Shown here piece by piece: positions 9,358 through 36,729 of a stretch of 64,000 nucleotides of DNA (within the stretch, counting starts at the first letter, position 1; each line of letters opens with the position of its first letter). The translations under genes and the position numbers were made by a program. The stretch comes from Ruegeria sp. THAF33 (lineage in GTDB: Bacteria; Pseudomonadota; Alphaproteobacteria; Rhodobacterales; Rhodobacteraceae), in contig NZ_CP045384.1 of NCBI RefSeq assembly GCF_009363615.1, positions 3,327,501 to 3,391,500 of the forward strand, in the 5' to 3' direction. The notes beneath the pieces were generated by a model that was given only the letters and a program-made list of their open reading frames with translations, made no database searches and was not told the DNA's origin.

Positions 9358-10659
9358 TTGCTTGAACACATTGTGGACTCTGAAAAACCCATCGACGATG
9401 GAAAAATAAGACGAAAGATGCAGGTTGTTAACGTTGCAGCCTTTATTGCGTCGCTTGGGTTTGGTTTCACAGCCTTCTACCAGTTCCAACTTGGACCAGA
9501 CTGGAGATATCTTGCATGGGTGAACTTTGGGCTTGGCTTCGCGGCGCTGTTGACGATGACGCTGGATCGCTTCGGCCTTGAGGTCAAAGTCGCTTATTTT
9601 ACAGTATGGTTATTCCTGTTCCTGGCCCATGACATCAGCGTCGGCAAAAACGGTGAAGATCACCTGGTCTTGCTTGTCGGCCCGCCCTTGCTTTTTTATT
9701 TTCTGGGGGCCGCATATTGGCGTTGGATCACTTTGATAACGATCCTCAGCGCAGCTTTGTTTATTTACATATCGCTTGTCGTTCCTTTGCACATACCGCC
9801 CGGCGAAACGATTTGGGATATTGTTACGCGATCATATCAAGACGGATTTGTTAGGCACCCTCAAGATGTTATTTTCATCGTGCTGATTTTGGGAATCGTC
9901 TCGGCGCTTTTTTTCACGTCCTATTCTGCAAACGCCGCAATAGATCGATACGAAGAAGCGTTGGAAAAGGAGTTCGCTGTTTCCGAGCGGCTGATAAATG
10001 TTCTTTTGCCTTCACGTATTGCCAAGCGCATCAAAGCGCACCCGGACAGGCTAATTGCTGAAAGAATTGATGACGCTACAATTCTGTTTTCTGATTTGTC
10101 TGGATTTTCTGAATTCGCGGCCGCCAATGGGGCAAGGGCGACGGTCAAATTGCTGGGCTCCGTGTTCTCGGCATTCGATGAACTGGTTTTGAGTTACAAG
10201 CTGGAGAAAATCAAAACCATCGGTGACAGTTACATGGTTGCAGGTGGTCTGGACCCCTCGGTCAAAGAGGCGCAACCGGATTCGGTTCGCATGGCGGCGT
10301 TGGCGATTGATATGATTGCGACGGTCGAGCGGGTGACAGACAATCTGCATCCAAAGGTGTCCCTGCGGGTCGGAATTCACAAAGGCCCGGTAATCGCAGG
10401 TGTAATCGGCGGCGACAAACCGTTTTTTGACGTTTGGGGTGATACAGTCAACATCGCCTCAAGAATGGAAAGCACCGGAGAGCCCGGGCGCGTTCAAATC
10501 TCACCCGAGGTAAGAGATGAGATAGCCGAATATGTGGATTGCGAGAGACGAGAGGTTATCAATATCAAGGGAAATGGCGAAATCCAACCGTATTGGCTGC
10601 TGAAAGTCCACGACAAACCTGCGACTTCACACTCGTCCGAGCGGCTCATCAAAGGCTGA
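9358..10659 (+). CDS. Membrane-anchored class III adenylate/guanylate cyclase
   Basis: The 433-aa product has about six hydrophobic segments in residues 25-200, then a short linker (LINVLLPSRIAKRI) and a class III cyclase domain from about 235. Metal-binding FSDLSGF, the substrate-region KTIGDSYMVAGG and the transition-state WGDTVNIASRME are all present, so it should be active. The topology, six helices then a linker and a single catalytic domain, is that of Mycobacterium Rv1625c-like half-molecules, which dimerise. The start is TTG at 9358 behind GGGGG (9346-9350); an ATG at 9418 is the alternative. It follows the DUF2229 gene after a 178-bp gap that shows no other feature. Confidence 0.88.
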   Translation: MLEHIVDSEKPIDDGKIRRKMQVVNVAAFIASLGFGFTAFYQFQLGPDWRYLAWVNFGLGFAALLTMTLDRFGLEVKVAYFTVWLFLFLAHDISVGKNGEDHLVLLVGPPLLFYFLGAAYWRWITLITILSAALFIYISLVVPLHIPPGETIWDIVTRSYQDGFVRHPQDVIFIVLILGIVSALFFTSYSANAAIDRYEEALEKEFAVSERLINVLLPSRIAKRIKAHPDRLIAERIDDATILFSDLSGFSEFAAANGARATVKLLGSVFSAFDELVLSYKLEKIKTIGDSYMVAGGLDPSVKEAQPDSVRMAALAIDMIATVERVTDNLHPKVSLRVGIHKGPVIAGVIGGDKPFFDVWGDTVNIASRMESTGEPGRVQISPEVRDEIAEYVDCERREVINIKGNGEIQPYWLLKVHDKPATSHSSERLIKG

Positions 10660-29917: not shown

Positions 29918-31081
29918 ATGAGCGTCGAAAAAAAGGTTTGGCTTATCTCTGGCCTGCTGACCTTTGGGTTGGCCGCCTTGTTGCTCAAGCTTTGGATCGA
30001 ACTGAACCATTTCGAGGAAGACCTGACGCAGCTGCCCGATCAGGCTTCGGTAGATGCGTATCTGTGCAGAATGGACGTGGCGCCGGACTATCGTTTGAGA
30101 ACGGGGATTTTCATAAAGTCGTTCAGCTTTCTGGGCGCCAGTGACGTGCGGCTTACCGGCTATATCTGGCAGCACTACAAGGAAAAGGAACATGATGCGA
30201 TCCTTCCCGCCGAAGGTGAGGTTGGATTTCTTCTGCCCGAAGCGGTCGATACGGCAAGCGGCCTAGTTGAAGAGGCATACCGCTTGTCACAACCCGACGG
30301 CGTCTTGATTGGTTGGTATTTTGAACAAACCCTGCGCCAGAGCTTCGACTACACCAGCTATCCCTTCGATCATAAAACGGTTTGGGTGAGGTTCTCGCCC
30401 GCTTCTTTCGAGGTCAATATCGCGCTGGTTCCTGACTTCGAGGCTTATCCGGCGACCGGACCGGATGACATTTTCGGGATCGACAACCGGATCGTGATGG
30501 GCACGTGGGAGCGAGAAAACACCTATTTCGACTACAAGCTGTCGAAACTGGATACGACGCTGGGCATCCGGCAGAACGCTTACCAGACCAACACGCCCGA
30601 GTTGCATTACAACTTCGTCATCAAACGCAATTTTGCAAACGCGTTCATCGTTCACATGATCCCGTTGCTGGTCGTGGTGATGCTGCTGTTCGGTGCGGTC
30701 ATGACCGTCACGCGCCGCGAGGGTCTGGTAGAGCGGCATGACTTCAGCACGTCCAGCGTGATCGGCACCTGTTCGGTTCTGTTCTTCGTGATCCTGCTGG
30801 CCCATGTGCAACTGCGCGAAGGATTCGCCGGATCGCCCGTGATCTATATGGAGTCGTTCTTTTTCCTTATGTATTTCATGTTGTTGGCAGTTTCGATCAA
30901 CACGTACCTTTTCGCGTCAGAGGCGGTAACGTCGCTGCGGATCATCCATTATCGGGACAACCTGATTCCAAAGGCCAGTTTCTGGCCCTTCGTGCTGCTG
31001 TGCATGGTGGCGATCACGGCCTATAACCTCAGCATCAAGGATAGCGCGGAACCGCCACCGATCAGCACGCGGGAGTGTTAG
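29918..31081 (+). CDS. Pentameric ligand-gated ion channel homologue
   Basis: The 387-aa product has an N-terminal signal anchor (about 7-28), a beta-rich extracytoplasmic domain (about 40-235) and four membrane helices (about 245-265, 280-302, 312-335, 352-370). The layout and landmarks parallel GLIC: GIFIKSFSFL like the first beta strands, SYPFDHKTVWVRF matching the YPFD signature of the Cys-loop, HYNFVIKRNFANAF before helix M1 and the Pro in M1 (MIPLLVVVML). The Cys-loop cysteines are absent, as in other bacterial members. It should be a cation or anion channel opened by an unknown periplasmic ligand. It overlaps the convergent fusion gene by 4 nt. Confidence 0.75.
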   Translation: MSVEKKVWLISGLLTFGLAALLLKLWIELNHFEEDLTQLPDQASVDAYLCRMDVAPDYRLRTGIFIKSFSFLGASDVRLTGYIWQHYKEKEHDAILPAEGEVGFLLPEAVDTASGLVEEAYRLSQPDGVLIGWYFEQTLRQSFDYTSYPFDHKTVWVRFSPASFEVNIALVPDFEAYPATGPDDIFGIDNRIVMGTWERENTYFDYKLSKLDTTLGIRQNAYQTNTPELHYNFVIKRNFANAFIVHMIPLLVVVMLLFGAVMTVTRREGLVERHDFSTSSVIGTCSVLFFVILLAHVQLREGFAGSPVIYMESFFFLMYFMLLAVSINTYLFASEAVTSLRIIHYRDNLIPKASFWPFVLLCMVAITAYNLSIKDSAEPPPISTREC

Positions 31082-34000
31082 GCCACGGGTTCAAACCCGG
31101 GTTTGGGTTCGCCTTGCGCCATATCCAGCGTGTAGTCGCTCACCACTTCGGACGTACCCTCGCGCCAGCTTTTCAGGTATTTTTCCGGATCCGCGATCAC
31201 ATAGGCATATGCGGGTTTCATCGCCCCGTCGATGACGACGTTGATTTTCTTGCGCACATAGACATTCTCGGGTGAGCCGGGGCCGTGATACCCTTCCAGC
31301 CTGTCCAGTTCGCGGAGACCGGATTCGGTGACACGGTAGACCTCTCCACCCACTTGCTTGCCCATCCCCTGCTGATCCACAAGCGTTGCCATGCGATGCA
31401 GATACCCACAGTTGGGATTGTCGCAGAATGGTTCCTTCGGGATGATCAGGGGCATCGGTTGCCGGGTGCGCGCCATTCCCACGAAGTCGTTAAGAACTTT
31501 GCTGTGTGCGTCATGATTGGGGAAGCCCTGCTTCAGGGACCCATAGGTGAAATACAGGTAGGAGGGTTCTTTGACGGCCACGAAGCTTTCGTCACGCCCC
31601 TGTTCAGGGTCTGCCATCTTCAGGTTGTGATCTTGCGCCCAGGCGTCCAGCATGGAACGGATTTCCGGTTCGATCTGCATGCCCTGAACGAATTCGATGC
31701 ACGGGGTCGCATCCATGTCTTCAGCCCGCAGCAGGATTTCCACCATCTTCGGTGCCTTGTTCATCACCGCCACATGCAATGCGGTGAACCCGTGATCGTT
31801 GACAATGTTGACGTCGATATCCCTGTCGATCAGGTCTTGGGCGGCCTCATAATCCGGCTTGCCCAGATCATGGCCGCTTTCGCCCAGTTCGCCTTCACCG
31901 CCCGCTGCATAGTGCAACAGTGAATCTCCATGGGCCTCGTCCACGATGTTGACGCCCACGACCCCTTCGTCGATGGCGCGGAACACGCGCTTCCATTCGT
32001 TGATGTCATCGGCGGCAGCGGCTTCGCGCGCCCATTTGCAGACGCGATACTTTTGGTCGTCCAATTCCTCGAACGCATCCGCCAAAGCTTCCATGATCTG
32101 GTCCGGCGTTGCCATCATGCCGATGCCCATTCGGCCGTTCGAAAGGCGACCTTCGCGCGGTCCGACGAAATCGACCCCAAGCGTCTTAAGCTTGTCGACG
32201 TTGTTCTGCGTGGTGATATTGTTCCACATATTTGTATTGCACGCGGGACAGAGGATCACGGGTTTCTTCTGGTATTGCCAAGCCACGAAGACCGAGGTCA
32301 AAAGATTGTCGGCGATGCCATTGGCAACTTTACCCATCGTGTTGCAGGTGATGGGGGCCACGATGACGCAATCTGCCCAGTCACATAGTGCCAGATGCGA
32401 GGCGCGCACCGGCATGTCGAAATTCAAATAGCGGAAATTCCACTCGTCATCGTCGCGGTAATAGTCATTGTGGGTGATTTTGGCGTCGATCCGTTCGGCA
32501 CCGAAATCCCGAAAGAACTTCTCGGCCGAAACAGACGGGATCAGTTTCACGTTATGCCCCGCGTCGACAATACGTTCGACAAGCTCGGGGATCTTGTCCG
32601 CCGCCGACGACCCGCAGGCGCAGAGCAATACGTTTCGCTTTCCGGCGTTTACTTGATTCATCACCCCCTTGGGGTAGCCGAACGGGTTCTTCTCAAGGCT
32701 TGGGGTTTCATTCAGTTCGGATACCGGCAGCCCTTCCTTGCGCATCCTGGCCTGCAATTCACCGGCCTGGATCATGTCTACGATGTCTTCCAGCTTTTCA
32801 CTTTTGCTGATGCATTTCCCTTTGAAAAACAAATACGGCACGTCCGGTCTTTCGCCCAGCGTCACCAGTTGCCGCCGCATCCTGATCATATTGGGATCGC
32901 GCCCGCCCACGTCGATCTGCTTGACGGTCGTTGCCCCGATATTCGAAAGAATGCTGCGAAGCATATAGGACCACGGGTCTTCGTCCTCGTAGAACAGAAC
33001 CATCGTATTGTGCTTGATGATGCTGGCAACATCGCTTGGGTTTTCGGGCGGTTCGACCTCTTCGATCACCAACAATGCAGGGTCTTCGAGATCCCGCAGA
33101 CCACGGAAAATGTTGCCCCGCGGCGCTTGCCAGACCTGCGAGGTTGCCGGACTCATATCGACTATGGTCACAACGTCTTCATCCTCGTCATAGTCTATGC
33201 ACAGGCACCAGAACTCTTCGAGCAACGCAGTTTCCCGGAACACGTTGTCCGGCGGGCGGATCGCCTCGATCCCGGTGACGCGATTGAAGTCGATGTTGAT
33301 CATCAGGTGGCGATTGCTGTCGGGGGTCAGGCTTTTCAACTGCACCTTGAACCAGTCTTCGGGGGTTTGGATTGATTTGTCGTCGCGGGTCTCAAAGCTC
33401 TGGAACGAACTGCTCAGATGCAGGTTCTCGGATTGTCTGATATACTTTTCGACCATGTCGTGCATGTCTTTGGCGGTGGCGACCCGGCGGACAGTATCCG
33501 TGAACGACACCTGGGCCGCCCGCAGCAACTCGTCCTCGTCCACCCTGTAGTCGCCGTGAATGGCGAGGCTTTCCACCAAAACGCCTATCGAGTTCATGTT
33601 GGGGGTCGCCCGGCGGAACAGGTTGCGGCGTTTCTTGGGGTCTTTCGCCAGGTAACGTGTGCTGTCGACGTAGTTGCACCGCTGCTTGAAGGTCTTCAGA
33701 TGCGTCTTGACCGCTGCCCGTGCTGAAAACCGCAACAGGCCGCGGGACCGCATCGAGGTTCCATCACGATCCGACATGGCTTGCCACAACCGTTCGACGG
33801 TTGTCACCCAAAGCTTGCCGTATTTCTCAGGGTGCACATCCATCATATGCACCAGCCCCGTGCTTGGATTGCACTTGGCGATGACGGCAAAATGGCCGCC
33901 GGGCATAGTCTCGTTGCCATGGGCAAGACCGACCTGGAAATTCGCCACCAGAATGTCGTTGTCACCGCCCAGCCGGTTGGATTCGTCGATCGCCTCAAGC

Positions 34001-34677
34001 AGCAGCGGCACACTGGTTGTGTCTGCGTCCATGAAATAGGCCTGAACCTGAACCCTCTCGCGCAGCCCCTGCGTGTGAATGTAGGTGCAGGCGACGTCAA
34101 AAAGCTCGCCCAGCGAGATTCCGTCGTTCACGACAAAGGACGAGGGCAATGCGCATTCGCGGAAGATGTCATTCACTTCGCAGCTGAACCCCAGCGCCGA
34201 CATGCTGAGAGCGGCCGCCGTGACACTGCAACAATTGATCGGCTGCTGAAAATTCTGCAACTGAACGCTGACCAGATCACCAAACATCGTTGCAAAACAG
34301 GGTTGCCGGACGCTCTCTGGTATCTGAAGCCAGTTCTGGCTGGATAGATACGCCAACCGGGTTCCATCCAGCGCAAGCGCTTCAAGGCTGACAGGGATAT
34401 CCGAGATCTGAAGGTGTTCTTCATAGAAGTAATCACCGACATCCGCGCTGGCCAATGGTTTCCCGTTCTGGCGCAACTGAACCACGCCACGCAGCACGAT
34501 ATACATGCCGTTCGCTGGCAGAACCGCGTTTCCGGTCACCTCGATACATTCGAATTGTGGGTTGATGACGGCTGGGTCGGCGATCTGAGCTTTGCCCGGA
34601 AGGACATCATATATCATCTTCCAGTCTGCGTCGCTTGGGGTGTAAGGTCTGGATTTGGAAATTTGATCTATGGTCAC
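31078..34677 (-). CDS. Phytochelatin synthase-HFCD decarboxylase-gamma-glutamylcyclotransferase fusion protein
   Basis: The 1199-aa product reads as a chain of domains. About 40-125: cyclic-nucleotide-binding-like barrel (MYIVLRGVVQLRQNGKPL) lacking an obvious phosphate-binding Arg. About 140-330: phytochelatin synthase with the full triad Cys150 (INCCSVTAAALS), His262 (GGHFAVIAKCN) and Asp280 (VHMMDVHPEKYG). About 350-535: a second, degenerate copy with Cys and His replaced. About 555-643: glutaredoxin-like, with PWSY where CGFS or CPYC is expected. About 680-870: HFCD flavoprotein of the phosphopantothenoylcysteine decarboxylase/EpiD type, His761 and PACNTNMW present. About 915-985: ankyrin repeats. 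About 1038-1165: gamma-glutamylcyclotransferase fold (FTYGSLKQG, LDRLEGY). It is cytosolic, with no signal peptide. Domain calls for the triad regions and HFCD are strong; the first barrel is tentative. Confidence 0.82.
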   Translation of the reverse strand: MTIDQISKSRPYTPSDADWKMIYDVLPGKAQIADPAVINPQFECIEVTGNAVLPANGMYIVLRGVVQLRQNGKPLASADVGDYFYEEHLQISDIPVSLEALALDGTRLAYLSSQNWLQIPESVRQPCFATMFGDLVSVQLQNFQQPINCCSVTAAALSMSALGFSCEVNDIFRECALPSSFVVNDGISLGELFDVACTYIHTQGLRERVQVQAYFMDADTTSVPLLLEAIDESNRLGGDNDILVANFQVGLAHGNETMPGGHFAVIAKCNPSTGLVHMMDVHPEKYGKLWVTTVERLWQAMSDRDGTSMRSRGLLRFSARAAVKTHLKTFKQRCNYVDSTRYLAKDPKKRRNLFRRATPNMNSIGVLVESLAIHGDYRVDEDELLRAAQVSFTDTVRRVATAKDMHDMVEKYIRQSENLHLSSSFQSFETRDDKSIQTPEDWFKVQLKSLTPDSNRHLMINIDFNRVTGIEAIRPPDNVFRETALLEEFWCLCIDYDEDEDVVTIVDMSPATSQVWQAPRGNIFRGLRDLEDPALLVIEEVEPPENPSDVASIIKHNTMVLFYEDEDPWSYMLRSILSNIGATTVKQIDVGGRDPNMIRMRRQLVTLGERPDVPYLFFKGKCISKSEKLEDIVDMIQAGELQARMRKEGLPVSELNETPSLEKNPFGYPKGVMNQVNAGKRNVLLCACGSSAADKIPELVERIVDAGHNVKLIPSVSAEKFFRDFGAERIDAKITHNDYYRDDDEWNFRYLNFDMPVRASHLALCDWADCVIVAPITCNTMGKVANGIADNLLTSVFVAWQYQKKPVILCPACNTNMWNNITTQNNVDKLKTLGVDFVGPREGRLSNGRMGIGMMATPDQIMEALADAFEELDDQKYRVCKWAREAAAADDINEWKRVFRAIDEGVVGVNIVDEAHGDSLLHYAAGGEGELGESGHDLGKPDYEAAQDLIDRDIDVNIVNDHGFTALHVAVMNKAPKMVEILLRAEDMDATPCIEFVQGMQIEPEIRSMLDAWAQDHNLKMADPEQGRDESFVAVKEPSYLYFTYGSLKQGFPNHDAHSKVLNDFVGMARTRQPMPLIIPKEPFCDNPNCGYLHRMATLVDQQGMGKQVGGEVYRVTESGLRELDRLEGYHGPGSPENVYVRKKINVVIDGAMKPAYAYVIADPEKYLKSWREGTSEVVSDYTLDMAQGEPKPGFEPVA

Positions 34678-35008: not shown

Positions 35009-36586
35009 TCAGTCGAGGAAAAGGTAATCCAACTGCATGATGGCTTGGGCTTTGTCTTCACCAACCCCAAGAAACTTGGCAATAACCGCTTCGTTCTCGG
35101 CGCGCGGGGCCGTTTCCCGCAGGCGCAGGTAATTGTCCAGCCGGGCGGCGCGGATCCGTTCGGATTCATAGCCCAGATCGTTGCGAAGCGTCGGCAGCAA
35201 GGAAGCAACGGTTTCGGTTGGGCTGTTGTCTCCGGCCAACCCGACGCGACGCGCGTGGCCGATCAGATAGTCGTCCGAGTATTCGCATTCGATCTCAAGC
35301 ACGTGAGTTTTGGCCTGGTCGCCGCAGAAATCCTCGAGCGCGTCAAGATTGGCCGGGTCAAGGCACAGCACCAGCTGATCCGACCCGAAACTGTCGAACA
35401 ACAGGCGCAGAACGGCGCGCCGGTGACGAGAGCGCTTGGTCAGTGTGGATTCGATCCCGCCCAGGTCCGGCAGCAACGTATTTTCTTCGTTGAACAGGTA
35501 TTCTACGCAAGGAATACCCGTTTCAGATGCGATCTGATCGACAAGACGTTTGGCGACATGCCATTTCTTGCAGACGATCACGAACAGTTCCCGTTCCGGG
35601 CCGAGTACGCTCGCGGCTTCCCAGAAGCGTTGTCCGAACCGGCGGCCGATACGCCCGCGGCCGGTGAGAAACGCATACAGATTGCGCCCCTCGTTCGAGA
35701 TCGGGAAATCGACACCCTCACTTGCATAGAGCGAGCCGAGCCGGGCCTTCAACTCATGCGCCTCGGCGCTGATCTTGCGGGCGAACAGATAATCCTGGCC
35801 CAGCAACATGTCATAATGATCATTGTAGAACGTGACCGGCATTCCATAGTCCGAGAACATCAGGAAGGTCGGCGTTCGGTTTTCAATCTCGTTTTTTGGG
35901 ATCAGGTGACGCACCAGCGTCTGAAAGAAGGTTTCATCAGGGATCCACGTGGTCGAAAAAAAACGGATCACATCCCGGCGCTGACGCAGGAAATCCAGAA
36001 TCATTTCGACGGTTCTGCGACGCAGGCACCACCATTGGCTGCCGATCATCATCTGAATGTCCTGGGGGATGTCCCGCGTCAGACCGAGGCGCTTTTGCAA
36101 TTCATAGGCGGCATAAAACAGCTTGGACTGTGTGCGCTCGTTGAAGTAGTGGCGATAGATCAGCCGGTCTTCCTTCATGCCGGTCTTGATCCAGTTGCTT
36201 TCAAAGAAATCGTGACTTTCGATGAAATCCTTGTCGTTATCGTCGAGGTAACGGTGCGTGTATTCAGCGGTTTTAATCGCCATGCAGTCACCCGACAGCA
36301 TGTAGAAATGTGTGGCGCGGGGGAAATTTTCCACGGCGGCTTCCAGGGCGTTCAGCGTGGCCCGGACCAGCGACCATTCTCCCCAGCCGCATCTGACGCG
36401 TTTTTTTGCAAAGGTCACATTGGGGTTCTGATCCAGTGCGGAACGAATGCGCTCATAGGCTTCGGCGCTGGCGCTGGCGTCAAAATGGATGGCCATGCAA
36501 TCGCCGACAGCGGTCAGTTGTTCGGCCTGTGCAATGATGGCTTCAGGGTCCTTGTGACACAGCAATATATAGGCGACTTTTGCCAT
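35009..36586 (-). CDS. GT14-type (core-2/I-branching, xylosyltransferase-like) glycosyltransferase with C-terminal extension
   Basis: The 525-aa product starts MAKVAYILLCHKDPEAI and has the GT14 layout: IHFDASAS, RVRCGWGEWSLVRATLNAL, FYMLSGDCMAIK and GSQWWCLRRRTVEMIL followed by TWIPDETFFQTL. These are the donor-binding and acceptor regions of branching N-acetylglucosaminyl/xylosyl transferases. Residues from about 310 form a second region (the DUF5928-type tail, by memory) with a nucleotide-kinase-like ELFVIVCKKWHVAKRL. ATG at 36586 is the first Met of the conserved part. A sulfotransferase gene is divergent from it. Confidence 0.78.
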   Translation of the reverse strand: MAKVAYILLCHKDPEAIIAQAEQLTAVGDCMAIHFDASASAEAYERIRSALDQNPNVTFAKKRVRCGWGEWSLVRATLNALEAAVENFPRATHFYMLSGDCMAIKTAEYTHRYLDDNDKDFIESHDFFESNWIKTGMKEDRLIYRHYFNERTQSKLFYAAYELQKRLGLTRDIPQDIQMMIGSQWWCLRRRTVEMILDFLRQRRDVIRFFSTTWIPDETFFQTLVRHLIPKNEIENRTPTFLMFSDYGMPVTFYNDHYDMLLGQDYLFARKISAEAHELKARLGSLYASEGVDFPISNEGRNLYAFLTGRGRIGRRFGQRFWEAASVLGPERELFVIVCKKWHVAKRLVDQIASETGIPCVEYLFNEENTLLPDLGGIESTLTKRSRHRRAVLRLLFDSFGSDQLVLCLDPANLDALEDFCGDQAKTHVLEIECEYSDDYLIGHARRVGLAGDNSPTETVASLLPTLRNDLGYESERIRAARLDNYLRLRETAPRAENEAVIAKFLGVGEDKAQAIMQLDYLFLD

Positions 36587-36729
36587 TGAGATTACGCAAT
36601 ATCCGTTTCTGCCTGATTTCAACCGTGATACTGAGGATGAACGATTGAATAAACAGAATAATTTTGGTTCTTTGTAACCAAAAGCTGGCGTATCGGATCG
36701 AGACCTGGCCAGCGGAGGAGGCGCAGCAG

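Follow-up and report, generated by a model that had tools for sequence, protein, structure and literature searches.

A seven-region fusion protein of marine Ruegeria, a candidate single-chain pathway for dismantling glutathione, encoded beside a nucleotide cyclase and a predicted ligand-gated ion channel

The window analysed here is a stretch of 64,000 nucleotides from the 4.63-Mb genome of Ruegeria sp. THAF33, a marine bacterium (contig NZ_CP045384.1, positions 3,327,501 to 3,391,500). It carries the gene of a 1199-residue fusion protein on which, in Ruegeria and its relatives, two further genes converge, one for a nucleotide cyclase and one for a 387-residue membrane protein (Table 1). A preliminary description of this DNA had proposed that one reading frame, 31078..34677, joins a phytochelatin synthase (PCS), a flavoprotein of the HFCD type (decarboxylases acting on cysteine) and a gamma-glutamylcyclotransferase. 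The frame is intact, lies on the minus strand and has the expected length, and profile searches place all three families on the segments assigned to them, above the curated Pfam cut-offs: Phytochelatin (PF05023) at residues 144–313 (6.5e-11; 42.3 bits versus a cut-off of 24.9), Flavoprotein (PF02441) at residues 682–868 (3.5e-27; 95.4 versus 22.7 bits) and the GGCT-fold family GGACT (PF06094) at residues 1042–1165 (9.7e-15; 55.6 versus 22.8 bits). An ankyrin repeat (Ank, residues 962–990, 3.1e-7) also exceeds its curated cut-off. The list of three enzymes thus stands and is incomplete: it lacked a cyclic nucleotide-binding (CNB)-like N-terminus, a degenerate second PCS copy, a glutaredoxin-like domain and the ankyrin repeats. 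The full order is CNB-like, PCS, degenerate PCS, glutaredoxin-like (no CxxC), HFCD, Ank and gamma-glutamylamine cyclotransferase (GGACT)-like. Source annotations call the protein a flavoprotein, a gamma-glutamylcyclotransferase, a hypothetical protein or similar.

Table 1. The fusion gene, its domains and the two converging neighbours (positions in the window).
Feature	Position	Strand	Basis or remark
Fusion protein P0001, 1199 aa	31078..34677	-	Open reading frame (ORF), GTG start, no internal stop
CNB-like beta-roll, N-terminal, residues 12-122	34312..34644	-	Sub-cut-off Pfam match and profile A8
PCS domain (PCS1), residues 125-325, triad C150/H262/D280	33703..34305	-	Pfam, profile A4, conservation
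Second, degenerate PCS repeat, residues 335-548	33034..33675	-	Comparison of both copies by hhalign
Glutaredoxin-like domain, residues 548-655, no CxxC	32713..33036	-	Profile A6
HFCD flavoprotein (PPC-decarboxylase-like), residues 676-875	32053..32652	-	1.4e-28 to AtHAL3a, aligned residues
Ankyrin repeats, residues 910-990	31708..31950	-	Pfam Ank
GGACT-like domain, residues 1038-1199	31081..31566	-	Pfam, PDB profile matches, conservation
SAM domain - class III nucleotide cyclase - AAA - TPR protein, 1091 aa	26622..29897	+	20 bp upstream of the channel gene
Predicted pentameric ligand-gated ion channel homologue, 387 aa	29918..31081	+	Convergent with the fusion gene, ends overlap by 4 bp

Conservation was counted over 73 sequences, namely the query, the near-identical P0002 and 71 further homologues, which include fragments and two permuted forms. 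Alignment A1 holds 34 of these 73 and alignment A3 holds 43; segment alignments and profiles A4–A8 were built from 15 loci, with P0075 added for A7. Eleven extra partial or eukaryotic-type proteins were picked by hand from the best 120 of 123 matches, many of which are plain ankyrin proteins. The 72 homologues (weakest match 4.1e-106) are mostly about 1200 residues long with the same Pfam set, and the domain order is common to 32 of the 34 sequences in A1, the other two being permuted. The protein is 90% identical to one of Ruegeria sp. 6PALISEP08. A genome scan gave 42 loci, mostly in Ruegeria, where 31 of 54 congeneric genomes carry the fusion; others are in Roseivivax, Roseibacterium, Seohaeicola, Roseovarius, SAR116, Rhodospirillaceae and other alphaproteobacterial metagenome-assembled genomes (MAGs) and, outside the alphaproteobacteria, in two gammaproteobacterial MAGs and one cyanobacterial MAG. 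Across the family, 5 of 295 genomes (294 genera) hold the full-length protein. The search for the same architecture in other genomes thus recovered it from many independent assemblies, and because of this recurrence the fusion is not an assembly artefact. That unconnected activities were joined by chance, or that the protein is a mis-assembled chimera, is most improbable: it is opposed by the number and uniformity of the homologues, the presence of the gene in more than half of the congeneric genomes, the existence of split and permuted versions and, for a chimera, the independent assemblies. A mobile or viral origin was considered and rejected; none of five pattern-matched stretches of viral contigs coded a relative, and plasmids gave no match at E 1e-40.

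The residues singled out in the preliminary description (Cys150, His262, Asp280 and His761) are present and, gaps apart, conserved in the 73-sequence alignment. In the HFCD module, H761, N814 and M817 align with His90, Asn142 and Met145 of the phosphopantothenoylcysteine (PPC) decarboxylase AtHAL3a, and each is kept in 73/73 sequences. According to the available part of PMC9604783, these three residues serve the oxidative half-reaction of AtHAL3a and Cys175 the reductive half, and HFCD chemistry acts on an N-acyl-cysteine. The position of Cys175 is taken by N847, and it is Asn in all 73 sequences, in agreement with the earlier remark that the reductive cysteine is missing; ten of the eleven extra proteins likewise have Asn, the last a gap. 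Because of this replacement an enethiol product is favoured. Judging from conservation, C778 (Cys in 84/84 sequences) or C813 could conceivably replace the reductive cysteine. A role of the module as an enzyme of CoA synthesis was ruled out. The same genome encodes a separate CoaBC of 398 residues (412.7 bits versus the NCBIfam cut-off of 219.7), and the module scores far below the cut-offs of both CoaBC (128.2 versus 219.7 bits) and CoaC (95.4 versus 261.4 bits); with a CoaBC of its own, the genome therefore does not need the module for CoA.

The catalytic triad of the first PCS copy is kept wherever the column is present, with one exception judged by eye: Cys150 in 69/73 sequences (4 gaps), His262 in 70/73 (3 gaps) and Asp280 in 70/73 (3 gaps), the triad Asp being Glu in the permuted P0072 and P0073. 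Bacterial PCS enzymes produce gamma-Glu-Cys from glutathione. In the C-terminal domain, Tyr1045 and Glu1128 are kept in 71/73 sequences (2 gaps). Its best PDB matches are GGACT entries (3.5e-11, 4e-11 and 5.4e-8), with 2kl2 and 1vkb being what we take to be mouse GGACT, and no GGCT or ChaC structure was matched in the PDB at E up to 1. The earlier name gamma-glutamylcyclotransferase therefore holds for the fold family (PF06094), and within it the domain is closest to GGACT, for which gamma-glutamylamines are the substrates in the part of the literature available to us. Because decarboxylated gamma-Glu-Cys is itself a gamma-glutamylamine, the third enzyme fits after the HFCD module and not before it; nothing speaks more strongly for the order of the modules than this substrate class.

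With moderate confidence we read the fusion, from its sequence, as a regulated single-chain pathway that would dismantle glutathione. The PCS domain would cut Gly off glutathione to leave gamma-Glu-Cys, an N-acyl-cysteine whose C-terminal carboxylate is free; the HFCD module, dependent on flavin mononucleotide, would oxidise the thiol side chain and decarboxylate it to gamma-glutamyl-aminoethenethiol, or to gamma-glutamyl-cysteamine if C778 or C813 substitutes for the reductive cysteine; and the GGACT domain would split either gamma-glutamylamine into 5-oxoproline and a free C2 aminothiol. The latter would be cysteamine or aminoethenethiol, which would rearrange or hydrolyse. The cysteine-less glutaredoxin-like domain and the second PCS copy are probably holding sites for glutathione or intermediates, and the CNB-like N-terminus may gate the activity through a cyclic nucleotide made by the neighbouring cyclase. 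The serial order is plausible because the known product class of each module is the known substrate class of the next. This logic, already put forward in the preliminary description, is strengthened by the GGACT likeness, by the Asn in place of Cys and by split and permuted forms of the protein; the activity and the product are still what we infer.

The cyanobacterial MAG has the modules as separate genes for PCS1-PCS2, glutaredoxin-like-HFCD-Ank and GGACT. The genes of the glutaredoxin-like-HFCD-Ank protein (488 residues) and the GGACT protein (162 residues) overlap by 4 bp, and the PCS1-PCS2 protein (503 residues), which by eye has a CNB-like start and is perhaps truncated by the contig end, lies on another contig. 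NCBIfam has no name for the GGACT protein or the PCS protein of this split form, and the same MAG has an ordinary PCS elsewhere in its genome. The order glutaredoxin-like-HFCD-Ank-GGACT-PCS-PCS2 was found in the metagenomic P0072 and P0073, and a dedicated homologue search gave no other case. In EukProt there are two transcripts with HFCD and Ank, one of them with GGACT; the glutaredoxin-like start was judged by eye. Because the same set occurs split, fused and permuted, the modules appear to work together. Upstream of the split pair and on the same strand are genes for an OsmC-like protein, a FIST sensory-domain protein and a GAF-cyclase of class III, the last about 750 bp from the glutaredoxin-like-HFCD-Ank gene; the OsmC-like and FIST genes (L063:6024-9238), which precede the cyclase, suggest redox or small-molecule sensing at this locus. 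The window has a second class III cyclase-like protein of its own (9358-10659, plus strand; 433 residues, hydrophobic N-terminus), which is 35% identical to this GAF-cyclase by tblastn.

The region between the PCS and glutaredoxin-like domains has no Pfam name. When the two segments were compared by hhalign, PCS copy 1 matched copy 2 with Prob 93 and E 3e-7 over 159 colinear columns; eleven controls (each copy against five other domains, plus a reversed profile) all gave E >= 0.079. The match is weaker with fewer sequences (Prob 5.6 and E 0.0068 for 15 loci; E 4.7e-4 for about 70 sequences). In the alignment, the second copy has N362 at the position of Cys150 and keeps an Asp (D507) at that of Asp280, and because the catalytic cysteine is replaced by Asn it should be catalytically dead. 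The following domain matches glutaredoxins in fold (profile A6, 3.3e-9) and keeps P614 in 73/73 sequences. Its active-site columns are E/D566 (67/73), D567 (68/73), P568 (62/73) and W569 (64/73), and no CxxC or CxxS site was found, there being no Cys at columns 566–569 in the 73 sequences. One PCS copy and the glutaredoxin-like domain without catalytic cysteines are what might be expected of a scaffold or sensor in which some domains, for example the HFCD module, merely bind or regulate; yeast Hal3 is such a moonlighting HFCD protein in the available part of PMC9604783. We consider this unlikely, since the catalytic residues of PCS1, of the first HFCD step and of GGACT are kept wherever the column is present, and a scaffold could do without them.

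The protein might process a glutathione adduct or persulfide from which Gly, the carboxylate and the gamma-glutamyl group are removed, in detoxification or for sulfur insertion into a natural product, as proposed for TdaF. Plant PCS is able to deglycinate S-conjugates, and the fusion has a fold that in related proteins binds glutathione. For TdaF, a PPC-decarboxylase-like protein of tropodithietic acid biosynthesis, the proposed substrate is a cysteine adduct, and cysteamine may be a co-product (PMC7497051, as far as available). This reading is nonetheless rather unlikely: the thiol that the HFCD module oxidises has to be free, so that conjugation as a thioether should stop the reaction, and the neighbours that recur in roseobacters beyond Ruegeria are a cyclase and a channel, not a product pathway, in flanking DNA that is partly annotated.

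The CNB-like assignment of the N-terminus comes from profile A8, which matches a PKA regulatory subunit in the PDB at 5.5e-5 by one stretch. Cyclic-nucleotide pockets have a phosphate-binding-cassette Glu and an invariant Arg; E86 is kept in 68/73 and E87 in 65/73 sequences. Several observations weigh against a regulated glutathione pathway as drawn above. The Pfam cNMP_binding match to the N-terminus is below the cut-off (17.2 versus 27.5 bits), the match of A8 to cGMP kinases in the PDB (4.9e-8) is summed over several CNB domains with no single significant stretch, and the invariant Arg was not found in alignment A8. The likeness of the PCS domain to a solved PCS is modest and distant; profile A4 matches Alr0975 at 1.8e-7, with the best stretch confined to the His-Asp half. 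The candidate cysteine C813 is kept in 73/73 sequences and in 9 of the 11 extra proteins, being Met in P0082, and is thus not universal. A route onward to hypotaurine or taurine gave no result, as cysteamine dioxygenase (PF07847) was not found in the 54 congeneric genomes, a weak negative because the control genomes were equally silent. Finally, 7 of 44 loci surveyed for their neighbours (SAR116, Rhodospirillaceae and Halieaceae types) have neither cyclase nor channel on the available contig DNA.

These 44 loci are the window, L006 and L022–L063; some contigs stop close to the fusion gene (e.g. L006, L052 and L054), and an absence there refers to that contig stretch. A relative of the cyclase protein is adjacent or one or two genes away in 36/44 loci, a GAF-type cyclase is present in one more, and the membrane protein is near the fusion in 34/44. 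Many of the loci are close relatives and hence are not 44 independent cases. Gene order varies. In Ruegeria and close relatives the genes are convergent; in L056 the cyclase, with its SAM and cyclase domains confirmed, is directly upstream, as is probably so in L006, where only its TPR part is on the contig; and in L042 the fusion, the cyclase, a 127-residue ORF and a channel with a Cache-type domain follow on one strand. The same 31 of 54 congeneric genomes hold the fusion, the channel and a close cyclase orthologue (at least 73% identity), and the remaining 23 lack close orthologues of all three, a co-inheritance that adjacency alone can also bring about. Less closely related cyclases are widespread in the genus (46/54 genomes with a match at E 1e-50), so that some cyclase near the fusion is partly expected. 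Within the genus, TAG stops lie inside the channel gene in G315 and inside the cyclase gene in G299, G304 and G334, and in Ruegeria intermedia (L040:13657-14853) the channel gene consists of two ORFs, with the fusion and cyclase ORFs long and open. Across the family, four of eight genomes with a channel homologue have no fusion, and one (G141) has the fusion without the channel. The distant channel homologues of four Rhodobacteraceae genomes without the fusion (L068, L069, L070 and L071; 36–43% identity) make up a branch of their own among these channels.

A cyclase near a CNB-like enzyme in 37/44 loci would also suit a signalling or defence device, in which a cyclic nucleotide turns on the enzyme and glutathione is drained or a reactive thiol released, as in a Pycsar-like abortive response. 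The cyclase matches PADLOC PycC models (best 3.8e-19; four proteins scanned), and the presence of the gene in the genus is patchy. Such models would, however, match many class III cyclases, whose relatives occur in most of the congeneric genomes; no relative of the fusion was found in the searched viral contigs or plasmids, many Ruegeria share the same flanking genes at this locus, and to our knowledge the enzyme is unlike Pycsar effectors. We regard the defence role as quite unlikely. Overall, the preliminary description had not seen the neighbouring cyclase and channel genes or the regulatory and accessory domains, and these extend the likely biology beyond plain metabolism, towards regulation or signalling. 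In SAR116-type loci the neighbours are of another kind: in L048 the fusion lies between a weak match to cobalamin-independent methionine synthase upstream and an aminotransferase downstream (L048:456-1634 and L048:5662-6891), and in L047 a methyltransferase is upstream (L047:9035-9862). These neighbours look metabolic, and the core metabolic role would therefore not always need the signalling partners. Upstream of the fusion in the window are a Core-2/I-branching glycosyltransferase with DUF5928 (35009-36622, minus strand) and a sulfotransferase (PF03567; 36664-37548, plus strand), the latter recurring in 22/43 clustered loci.

The 387-residue neighbour is a predicted homologue of pentameric ligand-gated ion channels (pLGICs). 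In a structure comparison with VIA-align its predicted fold, a beta-sandwich ligand domain followed by four transmembrane helices, matches these channels. The Pro-loop signature of pLGICs is (F/Y)PxD; the window's protein has YPFD, and the ten rows of alignment A9 have YPFD (six), YPLD (two), FPLD (one) and YPLE (one). The channel sets A2 (17 sequences) and A9 (10) were made without close duplicates and without L071, whose ORF is unclear. Sequence searches with phmmer, Pfam or profile A2 found no pLGIC, and profile A9 gave just two matches, both GLIC chimeras and neither significant (E 0.16 and 0.18). For ELIC, a bacterial pLGIC, cysteamine was the strongest agonist at low concentration among small molecules tested, in the part of the report available to us. 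The locus might thus form an aminothiol signalling circuit in which the fusion makes a cysteamine-type amine under cyclic-nucleotide control and the neighbouring channel is its receptor, a proposal we hold to be doubtful; if true, cysteamine would be the physiological ligand, or a stand-in for it, of a bacterial homologue of neurotransmitter receptors.

No description of such a fusion or gene set was found in the open-access literature searched. From sequence comparison, the three-gene system would be new in composition, with known component families and a function deduced from them, and its novelty would shrink if the steps turn out to be no more than the usual turnover of glutathione. If the pathway is true, a new route would lead from glutathione, a main thiol of the cell, straight to a decarboxylated aminothiol, and CoA-type decarboxylase chemistry would have a new use on part of the glutathione molecule; a functional neighbourhood would provide a genomic lead to the ligand of a bacterial pLGIC. 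Among known systems, PPC decarboxylases (AtHAL3a and the CoaC half of CoaBC) share with the fusion the HFCD fold, the His, Asn and Met of the oxidative step and the expected N-acyl-cysteine type of substrate, but they have the reductive Cys175 where the fusion has Asn, and they lack its fused PCS and GGACT domains. The peptidyl-cysteine decarboxylases EpiD, MrsD and CypD resemble it in oxidative decarboxylation without a reductive cysteine, which would give an enethiol; in sequence, however, EpiD is matched at 1.1e-14 and AtHAL3a is closer at 1.4e-28. The PCS of Nostoc, Alr0975, has the same papain-like Cys-His-Asp triad and family (PF05023), whereas the copy in the fusion is divergent and followed by the presumably dead second copy within a protein of seven regions. 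GGACT (A2LD1) shares the YG(S/T)LKxGxPNH motif and the catalytic Glu, and differs from the fused domain in lacking, in the aligned solved relative, the CxNxxC insert (residues 1085–1090). TdaF is a stand-alone protein of another pathway context, compared here by description alone. It is a roseobacter HFCD homologue with cysteamine as a proposed co-product of tropodithietic acid biosynthesis (PMC7497051, available part). The prokaryotic pLGICs (sTeLIC, GLIC, ELIC, DeCLIC and the Cache-LGICs) share with the neighbouring protein the predicted ligand-binding beta domain and transmembrane helices, and the N-terminal Cache domain of the Cache-LGICs (PMC549065, available part) has a counterpart in the dCache-like N-terminus of the L042 channel homologue; the available text of PMC549065 has no mention, by the terms searched, of a link to a glutathione enzyme or cyclase. 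The neighbour differs from these channels in having no Pfam name or significant PDB sequence match, and in its genomic linkage to a glutathione enzyme and a cyclase.

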